From: Lachnospiraceae bacterium | Lineage (GTDB): Bacteria > Bacillota > Clostridia > Lachnospirales > Lachnospiraceae | Assembly: GCA_017479285.1 (NCBI GenBank) | Contig: JAFVCL010000002.1 | Span: 1 to 58,513, forward strand | Reading direction: 5' to 3' | Length of the DNA stretch: 58,513 nucleotides | Shown: piece by piece, positions 13,566-15,487 of the stretch | Layout: every line of letters begins with the position of its first letter | Numbering within the stretch: position 1 is the stretch's first letter | Program-made: the position numbers and the translations under genes | Notes under the pieces: generated by a model | Told to the model about the DNA's origin: nothing | The model's database searches: none | Seen by the model: the letters and a program-made list of their open reading frames with translations, nothing else

Positions 13566-14501
13566 CTACTCATGCAGTCTGTGTATCATCCTAAAGGCCG
13601 TCTCATACTGGTTTATCATGGCACTGTTATGGGCAAAAAACACTATTCCGTCCGTGGAAGCCGTTATCTCTTCCCTGAGGGAGCCGTCGAAGGGGTCCAG
13701 GATCTCGGCCATCTTTGTGCCGTATCTTACATCCTCGCCGCAGACAACCTTGCTCCGGAAGAGTCCGCCCCTGCCCGCGTATACATCCGTAAGATCATCC
13801 TCATAGAGCATGTGGCTTATAAACCCGGAATGGCACTCGTACCGTATTATCCCCATTCTCGTAAGAAACCTTAAAACAGCGGAAACAGCGCCTTTGGCAG
13901 CTTTCTCGTCTATATTCTCCGTCTCCTTTGTGAAGATCGTAAAGGCGTTTCCCGACTCGGTCTGGAGATTATAATTCATCGTTGTCGTATCGATAGGCAG
14001 GGGGCGTCTCACAACGACATATGGAAGCCCGAAGAGGTTTGCAAGAGAGGAGTTGGTGTGCTCTGTCTCCATCATCCTTACATGGGGTACGCATTCGGAC
14101 CTCTCGAAAAAGGAAGTAAACTGGATCGTGTAGGTATATTCCTTTATCCTGTCGTATATTCCTCCGGCAAGCCTTGATATAGGCTCTCCGCCGGTCTTTC
14201 CGGGGAAGCATCTGTTAATATCAAGATTCTTTACACCGAAAAAATTGTTCTCGAGATTAAAGGCATAATAGTTGGCACAGGGGATTACAAGTATCTCTTT
14301 GTCGTTTGCGATGGCACCGCTCTTTTCAAGCTCCTCGAGGGTTTTTACAAGTCTGCCGCATATATAAAGCTGCTGGTTTTCTCTCCCTCTTGTGGGGCCG
14401 ACAATGCACGCGGCACGCTGTCCGGACCCGAATCTGAAGCCCTTGACCTTCATATCCTGCCGGTATGTAGATTTAAAGGTATAAATATCTTCTCTTTCCA
14501 T
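13566..14501 (-). CDS. Aspartoacylase/succinylglutamate desuccinylase-like protein lacking catalytic residues
   Basis: A 311-residue paralog of the upstream enzyme with the same fold markers: NLDINRCFPG, and a C-terminal barrel-like domain (AEILDPFDGSLREEI, TDGIVFF). Compared with its neighbour, the zinc histidine of GTHGDE is R38 (PTRGRE), the second zinc histidine of DIHAS is F128 (IQFTS), and the general-base glutamate of VIEMG is R165 (VVRRP). Only E41 and R97 remain. It is unlikely to bind zinc or hydrolyse amides, so it may be a regulatory or structural partner of the active enzyme. Its start is 1 nt after the stop of that gene, which points to coupled translation. Confidence 0.75.
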   Translation of the reverse strand: MEREDIYTFKSTYRQDMKVKGFRFGSGQRAACIVGPTRGRENQQLYICGRLVKTLEELEKSGAIANDKEILVIPCANYYAFNLENNFFGVKNLDINRCFPGKTGGEPISRLAGGIYDRIKEYTYTIQFTSFFERSECVPHVRMMETEHTNSSLANLFGLPYVVVRRPLPIDTTTMNYNLQTESGNAFTIFTKETENIDEKAAKGAVSAVLRFLTRMGIIRYECHSGFISHMLYEDDLTDVYAGRGGLFRSKVVCGEDVRYGTKMAEILDPFDGSLREEITASTDGIVFFAHNSAMINQYETAFRMIHRLHE

Positions 14502-14502
14502 A

Positions 14503-15447
14503 TCAGAACGCCCCCGTTAAGATCCTCGCAAGCAGATCCCCCTCACTCACCACCGGGTATATCCGCTGCGTAAACAATAATCCGGACTGCTGCGTAACTA
14601 TCCTTAAAGGCTCCCCGCCGCTGAAGGGATCAAGAATTTCCCCTATAACATCCCCGGCCTTTACAAAATGATTATGCTCGGTCAGCGGGATAAAGATGCC
14701 CGCCTTTTCGCTTCTTATAAACTCCACGCTTCCGTCACTGGAGATTGCGGGAAGATGTGTCCGGGGTCTCTGACCCATCCACATTCCCAGCTCGCAGAGT
14801 ATATTGAATATCCCGTCCACTATCTGGTCGCCGTAGGGCTTGTTTATCTGGTGTCCCTGCCCCATCTCGATAACAAGAGTCGGCACTCCCATAATATTCA
14901 TCGAATGGGCAAGGGTGGATTCATGCACCGTCGCGGTGGCGTTCATCCAGATCATATCGGCGTTGGTAAGCTTTGCGAAAGGAAGAAGGCCCTCCGCAAA
15001 TTCCTCCGCAAGACGAACCTGGGGAATCTCCCTCACAAATATATCGCTGGCATGGATATCAAGAACAAGATCGGAACCTGCCAGACTCTCCACGATACCG
15101 CTGCTTACCCTGTCCATGAGATTGCCGCCCGCGCTCCCCGGAAAAGTCCGGTTCATATCCGCATTATATAAAGGGTTATTCTTGCTCGCCATATCTATTC
15201 CGAAGGGATTCAGAGCGGGATAAATATCCACTATCCCCATCAGCTTCTCCGGAGCCTCGGAAATCCGCCTTGCGACCTCATAACAGATATACTGACCCTC
15301 CAGCTCGTCTCCGTGGGTTCCGCTCACGATGGAGAGCCTGCCGGGAGAATTTATCTGCGTCTGCGGCTCTATCCGGTTTCTGAATATTTTATATGTCTCC
15401 CCCACGGGAAGCTCAAACTCCAAAACTGTTTCTCTCATATTTATCAC
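14503..15447 (-). CDS. Succinylglutamate desuccinylase/aspartoacylase family zinc deacylase
   Basis: A 314-residue M14-like metallo-hydrolase that removes an acyl group from an N-acyl amino acid or related amide. The zinc site H45/E48 (GTHGDELEG) and H132 (LDIHASD), the substrate arginine R100 (NADMNRTFPG) and the base E194 (VIEMGQG) are all present. A C-terminal hammerhead-like domain follows (AGDVIGEILDPFSGG). No signal peptide, so cytoplasmic. The exact substrate is unknown; no arginine-degradation genes are near. It is translated directly ahead of a catalytically dead paralog, and a perfect terminator at 15458-15487 isolates the pair from the TetR gene upstream. Confidence 0.85.
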   Translation of the reverse strand: MINMRETVLEFELPVGETYKIFRNRIEPQTQINSPGRLSIVSGTHGDELEGQYICYEVARRISEAPEKLMGIVDIYPALNPFGIDMASKNNPLYNADMNRTFPGSAGGNLMDRVSSGIVESLAGSDLVLDIHASDIFVREIPQVRLAEEFAEGLLPFAKLTNADMIWMNATATVHESTLAHSMNIMGVPTLVIEMGQGHQINKPYGDQIVDGIFNILCELGMWMGQRPRTHLPAISSDGSVEFIRSEKAGIFIPLTEHNHFVKAGDVIGEILDPFSGGEPLRIVTQQSGLLFTQRIYPVVSEGDLLARILTGAF

Positions 15448-15457
15448 CCGGGTTACG

Positions 15458-15487
15458 ATAAAAGGCAGGAGAGATGCTCCTGCCTTT
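15458..15487 (-). terminator. Terminator after the TetR gene
   Basis: Perfect 11-bp stem AAAGGCAGGAG (15461-15471)/CTCCTGCCTTT (15477-15487), 5-nt loop, TTTTAT following on the minus strand. Confidence 0.88.

Follow-up and report, generated by a model that had tools for sequence, protein, structure and literature searches.

A predicted zinc hydrolase and its predicted catalytically dead paralogue form a conserved gene pair in the AstE/aspartoacylase family

Introduction

Which role can a protein play that descends from a zinc-dependent hydrolase, is encoded directly behind such a hydrolase and has itself lost both zinc-binding histidines and the catalytic base? This question is raised by two adjacent genes, here called A and B, in the window, i.e., the whole stretch of 58,513 nucleotides that was analysed. 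An earlier note on this DNA had described the pair as an intact enzyme coupled to a catalytically dead paralogue, and this description is well supported by the residues and by the conservation of the pair reported below.

Human ASPA, a dimer of 37-kDa monomers, holds its zinc through His21, Glu24 and His116, with Asn70, Arg71 and Glu178 among the residues of its catalytic site (PMC5412892, in excerpt). In our reading, these zinc and catalytic residues would correspond to residues of A. In the literature searched, at the level of abstracts, neither a catalytically dead partner of ASPA or AstE nor any enzyme/pseudoenzyme pair of the AstE/aspartoacylase family was found; Iyer 2009 may mention AstE-like genes next to CP-ATP-grasp. 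Among the literature matches listed, none joins succinylglutamate desuccinylase, transglutaminase and ATP-grasp.

We regard it as fairly probable that A and B form a hetero-oligomeric zinc-dependent amide hydrolase, in which B would be a non-catalytic, ligand-binding subunit. Near-obligate pairing, similar constraint on both proteins and a loss restricted to specific residues make a complex of a catalytic A and a non-catalytic B the simplest account.

Gene A retains and gene B has lost the zinc site

Both genes lie on the minus strand, and their open reading frames (14503-15447 and 13566-14501) are spaced by a single base (TGA T ATG). The features of the locus are:

14503..15438, minus strand: gene A, predicted AstE/aspartoacylase-family zinc hydrolase, 311 aa from ATG, PF24827 73.1 bits
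13566..14501, minus strand: gene B, predicted catalytically dead paralogue (pseudoenzyme), 311 aa, PF24827 27.8 bits
15505..16101, minus strand: TetR-family regulator upstream of A, PF00440 57.1 bits
16125..16601, minus strand: DUF6508-like protein, 20.8 bits, below the Pfam cut-off of 23.6
15461..15487, no strand assigned: inverted repeat with 11-bp stem between the TetR gene and A, terminator-like on the plus strand

Gene A probably starts at the ATG at 15438 and the GTG at 15447 is probably unused, since the former is the first start codon there in 8/10 aligned homologues and the latter is part of a Shine-Dalgarno-like GGGTGAT. Residues of A are numbered here from the GTG (314 aa) and those of B from its ATG. 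Both proteins score above the cut-off of 25 bits for PF24827 (AstE_AspA_cat), the Pfam catalytic domain that they have in common with human ASPA and bacterial AstE, and they are 22% identical to each other (E 2e-15). A combines this domain score with the HxxE...H zinc site and the Glu base of the family; B reaches the score but has neither the zinc site nor the base. Judged by these features, B is related to the PF24827 family by descent and would be no member enzyme.

By sequence, the best solved relative of both proteins is DoeB (N-acetyl-L-2,4-diaminobutyrate deacetylase; PDB 6twm/6twl; TIGR02994), the match covering residues 30-309 of 314 in A and residues 68-296 of 311 in B. The His-Glu, the His and the Glu of A face residues of the same kind in DoeB, which is one catalytic polypeptide. 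Identity with DoeB was rejected for both proteins, since the TIGR02994 scores of 63 bits (A) and 33.2 bits (B) stand against an equivalog cut-off of 402.7.

The positions on which the assignment of the active site depends are the following, all read on the minus strand:

15313..15315, minus strand: A H45, first zinc His, H in 121/129 A
15304..15306, minus strand: A E48, zinc Glu, E in 128/129 A
15052..15054, minus strand: A H132, second zinc His, H in 129/129 A
14866..14868, minus strand: A E194, predicted catalytic base, E in 129/129 A
14388..14390, minus strand: B R38, replacing the first zinc His, R in 129/129 B
14379..14381, minus strand: B E41, zinc-Glu position retained, E in 128/129 B
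14115..14117, minus strand: B T129, replacing the second zinc His in the best alignment (three MAFFT modes)
13932..13934, minus strand: B F190, replacing the base Glu, Y in 122/129 B and otherwise F (7/129)

Residues were aligned in three MAFFT modes, using a random 26 of the 129 pairs together with 6 bridging sequences, and the 129-row counts omit the loci L185 and L186, in which B retains its zinc ligands. The three modes agree in pairing H45 of A with R38 of B, E48 with E41, D97 with D94, N99 with N96, R100 with R97, H132 with T129, R145 with R142 and E194 with F190. The window copy of A retains H45, E48, R100 (114/129 A), H132 and E194, so that the two zinc histidines, the glutamate ligand, the arginine and the base which the earlier note ascribed to the upstream gene are indeed present. 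For the downstream paralogue, R38, F128 and R165 had been named as the replacements. R38 stands, but the three modes place T129 instead of F128 opposite H132 and F190 instead of R165 (R in 96/129 B) opposite E194, and the two latter assignments were therefore rejected.

Position 129 of B is occupied by A in 65, T in 47, P in 8, S in 5, V in 2, R in 1 and G in 1 of the 129 sequences and never by His. The register around H132 varies and is the weakest point of the residue assignment: BLAST and a 4-sequence MAFFT alignment place Q127 opposite H132, hhalign places a gap, and position 127, Q in the window protein, is His in 10/129 B. When FPG and PHVR are joined without a gap, a register backed by the bridging sequences, T129 is the equivalent. 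The check for shifted ligands, proposed along with the original description, came out in its favour, as in none of the alignments tried does a His of the window B fall on a ligand column; a displaced zinc ligand, for example H140, is conceivable but improbable.

Moreover, B conserves D94 and N96 (both 129/129), R97 (122/129), R142 (125/129), D171 (127/129), T174 (128/129) and N176 (127/129). The polar conservation of R38, E41, D94, N96, D171, T174 and N176 exceeds the need of a pure scaffold and lends some weight to the idea, which we nevertheless consider unlikely, that B is catalytically active through a remodelled site free of zinc (R38, E41, Y/F190, H140, R142, D171, T174, N176), A and B then being consecutive enzymes that act on one substrate or on successive ones. 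Against this, position 190 switches between Y and F, position 129 is variable, a conserved pocket fits a binding-only subunit equally well, and the fixed gene order together with the near-obligate pairing favours one machine.

For the hydrolase with a non-catalytic subunit B, the proteins in which A itself is altered count against the reading. Eight of the 131 A proteins have lost H45 (7 Tyr, 1 Gln; L090, L097, L087, L135, L137, L138, L140, L142), and five of these are altered at R100 as well. Both subunits may be dead in these eight pairs, and as far as the residues tell, the zinc site is not maintained in every pair.

Conservation of the pair across genomes

The earlier note would have given up its reading if homologous pairs did not exist in other genomes; they turned out to be widespread. 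The survey yielded 134 distinct B loci with flanks, i.e., 132 B and 2 zinc-retaining forms, and 131 of them have A immediately 5' of B in the same orientation. The exceptions are two contig ends (L067/L188 and L156) and one solo B in genome G091 (L141/L187), which is intact and has no A within 20 kb (7.8 kb on A's side) or by genome search. In the family sample, an A-profile search found A in 84/397 genomes, and B is present in 84/84 of these; G091, G153 and G237 carry B but gave no match for A. Rows dropped from the survey are L146 (fragmented A and B), L147/G312 (an AstE relative), L190 (duplicate of L112), L187 and L188 (duplicates of L141 and L067) and a partial B in G153 (L224), and three B matches, G305:C56 and two fragments in G072, lie outside the flanked set.

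B is found in 11/31 genomes of the genus. In the family, 88/397 genomes match, which leaves 87 with B after removal of the AstE relative in G312. In the order sample 29/295 genomes match B, of which 18 fall in families other than that of the window, and in the phylum sample 6/398 match, including the window genome and the two zinc-retaining forms. A scan of genome contigs gave one locus, from an uncultured Lachnospiraceae bacterium. No relatives were found in two tblastn scans of viral contigs, and the plasmid matches listed (15 of 486 records in one search and 15 of 15 in another) are all AstE-type relatives at 21-27% identity with no pair recognised.

The single-base gap, from which equal synthesis of the two proteins had been derived, holds for the window; as a conserved trait it fails, being found in 0/131 other pairs. 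With the first start codon of each open reading frame taken as its start, 91/131 A/B junctions overlap, most commonly by 4 nt (35/131). These overlaps suggest translational coupling. As the earlier note proposed, A and B might be synthesized in equal amounts and B might have a regulatory role. At one locus (L184:5389-6924) the C-terminus of B is fused to a methyltransferase domain, with an ordinary A upstream.

Association with the CP-ATP-grasp/Alpha-E/transglutaminase operon

The neighbourhood of the pair was analysed for 127 loci and the window, 128 in total, omitting L004/L005/L011/L014 with their short flanks. Same-strand gene clusters upstream of the pair, identified by Pfam matches of representatives, comprise CP-ATP-grasp (62 of 128), Alpha-E (59) and transglutaminase-like proteins (59); at least one of the three is present in 68/128 loci and all three in 53. 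In these operon-type loci the pair forms the last two genes, 3' of the transglutaminase gene, and their A proteins have the five residues intact in 68/68, the eight A proteins without H45 all lying outside this group. That A and B stay adjacent in numerous relatives, and frequently close this predicted peptide-modification operon, suggests one two-part enzyme.

The Anbu operon is described as consisting of CP-ATP-grasp, Alpha-E, transglutaminase and Anbu, in this listed order, and a role in peptide synthesis or tagging was proposed for it, credited to Iyer 2009 (PMC6376114; also PMC5666114; both in excerpt). According to the excerpt of PMC6376114, these roles were without experimental confirmation as of 2017, and no peptidase activity was seen for the Anbu of Yersinia. 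The three upstream gene families found here are identical to those of the Anbu operon and follow the order listed in that excerpt, but A and B, not Anbu, sit 3' of the transglutaminase gene. The proteasome fold (PF00227) was found in 0/45 genomes of the window's order, including the window genome. Over all 52 genomes checked, 7 match PF00227, 6 of them over the cut-off and none from the same order. Five of the six proteins above the cut-off are open frames of 184-206 aa, which we take to be the size of HslV, and Anbu may be present in the more distant genomes that bear a proteasome fold.

Alpha-E is present in 49/397 genomes of the family, and B in 47 of these 49 vs 40/348 genomes without Alpha-E (p 3e-34, a value that is not corrected for relatedness). 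The two Alpha-E genomes without B count against a uniform mechanism, as do the solo B and the A proteins without H45. An operon role is further opposed by 60/128 loci, the window among them, in which none of the three operon genes lies in the flank read, 4 of these having under 1.5 kb of upstream sequence. No Alpha-E was found in the window genome (87.5% complete), and the window locus has no adjacent operon genes. The window copy shares its upstream TetR gene with other members of a group (14/128 loci) and its DUF6508-like gene likewise (13/128), the window counted. It is a paralogue outside the CP-ATP-grasp operon.

Several variants of the operon were observed. L222 and L223 (G298 and G404) carry ATP-grasp and Alpha-E, L222 also transglutaminase, with no A or B nearby. 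In G153 an ATP-grasp frame lies directly beside a partial B with the middle genes absent (L224:9888-11518), an arrangement that is possibly a deletion or misassembly. The Alpha-E protein of L076:9000-9668 and its relatives is ~222 aa long and covers approximately the N-terminal half of the Pfam profile, and the Alpha-E of the distant L185 matches the full profile.

The solo B in G091 and the ATP-grasp frame adjoining the partial B in G153 could also be taken to mean that A and B are co-transcribed without contact, B being an independent binder or regulator, e.g., of the upstream ligase. We give this little credence, given that A never occurs without B in the 84 A-bearing genomes and that the pair is kept in the 60/128 loci where the adjacent ligase operon was not found.

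A zinc-retaining form of B

A form of the second gene of the pair that retains the zinc ligands (INTERMEDIATE) was found in one small order, which we guess to be the Heliobacteria, in 6/9 genomes searched. It keeps the H, E and H of the zinc site, and in 6/6 sequences the base Glu is replaced by Met. The zinc-retaining B of L185 has a DINRMFPGY.LGETTQRIA-like motif in common with B, and that of L186 is close to it. In both loci, which have full flanks, the zinc-retaining pair follows the CP-ATP-grasp operon genes. A FastTree phylogeny separates B and the zinc-retaining form (two loci) from A and its partner with a support of 99, a split of moderate weight because the tree is a quick one with long branches.

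This form bears on the possibility that B still binds metal through displaced ligands, namely E41 together with H140, or H127 in some members. E41 (128/129) and H140 (121/129) are indeed well conserved and His occurs at position 127 in 10/129 B. We consider such metal binding improbable: R38 occupies the site of the first His ligand in 129/129 B, H140 lies 11 residues beyond the ligand column and is Gln in 8/129, and the same position is His in L185 and L186, whose zinc ligands are kept.

Selection and divergence

Over the 129 pairs, A and B show mean pairwise identities of 52% and 51%, respectively, and 47 positions in A and 39 in B are conserved at 95% or more. The distance matrices of A and B correlate with r 0.63, with 0/999 permutations as high, a value to which common descent contributes alongside any interaction. 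In eight same-genus comparisons to the window copy, dN ranges from 0.12 to 0.19 for A and from 0.19 to 0.29 for B; within the genus, B thus departs from the window copy faster than A, which counts against the favoured reading. dS is defined in 5/12 comparisons for B and in 6/12 for A, giving dN/dS of 0.013, 0.043, 0.024, 0.087 and 0.12 for B and of 0.013-0.073 for A, ratios that are rough because dS is high (0.7-3.2). By these ratios B is under purifying selection.

That B is merely a decaying duplicate, as its lost catalytic residues and its faster divergence within the genus might suggest, is barely credible in view of its dN/dS of 0.013-0.12 (in the 5/12 comparisons with dS defined), its 39 positions conserved at 95% or more and an R38 that is present in 129/129 B across several families.

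A putative two-subunit amide hydrolase

The hetero-oligomeric hydrolase with B as its non-catalytic subunit builds on the pairing, the residue loss, the purifying selection, the operon context and the zinc-ligand-retaining relative of B, all of which are read from sequence. A would perform the chemistry by its His-Glu-His zinc site and Glu base on what would be an amide substrate. B would have arisen by an old tandem duplication, in which the base may have been lost first and the zinc histidines later, while the fold, the D-x-N-R motif and R142 would have been retained. In a physical complex with A, B would most likely bind A's own acyl or peptidyl ligand, or one related to it, and thereby stabilise A, position it or regulate it. 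Where the operon accompanies the pair, as in about half of the relatives, A and B would provide the hydrolysis that is elsewhere proposed for Anbu.

A further-reaching proposal, which we put forward tentatively and consider somewhat doubtful, is that in the CP-ATP-grasp/Alpha-E/transglutaminase peptide-modification system of Clostridia a heteromeric zinc amidohydrolase replaced Anbu. B would serve as receptor of the peptide or acyl group that is ligated, A would be its eraser or trimmer, and living lineages would preserve one step of a path on which the base was lost before the zinc ligands. A well-understood chemistry following the same three genes would offer a handle on the bond that is made or broken by the operon system. 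The pair might furthermore exemplify the evolution of a bacterial enzyme into a pseudoenzyme, of which a living intermediate is retained.

A likeness in principle is offered by the AdoMetDC/prozyme pair of trypanosomes, in which an active enzyme is combined with a catalytically dead paralogue as in A and B (PMC5201418, in excerpt). It differs in belonging to an unrelated, eukaryotic family, and its complex and activation are experimental, whereas those of A and B are proposed from sequence. The carboxypeptidase D family is linked to AstE. The third domain of carboxypeptidase D is a metallocarboxypeptidase domain predicted to be inactive (PMC5683605, in excerpt). In contrast to B, which is a separate subunit encoded in an operon, this inactive domain is covalently linked and eukaryotic.

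Further features of the loci

A role in anti-phage defence was rejected, as 0/5 proteins matched PADLOC. A gene of ~1250 aa follows B downstream, in the same orientation, in 32/128 loci (e.g., L103 and L129), in 2 of them together with ATP-grasp; in our reading it would be FGAM-synthase-like (PurL). On the gene strand, no strong T-run follows the inverted repeat of the window or the comparable one 5' of A in L150. In L152, L153, L154 and L155, which belong to the same genus, stem-loops 5' of A are followed by T-runs on that strand, so that the A/B pair may be transcribed separately or be subject to an attenuator.
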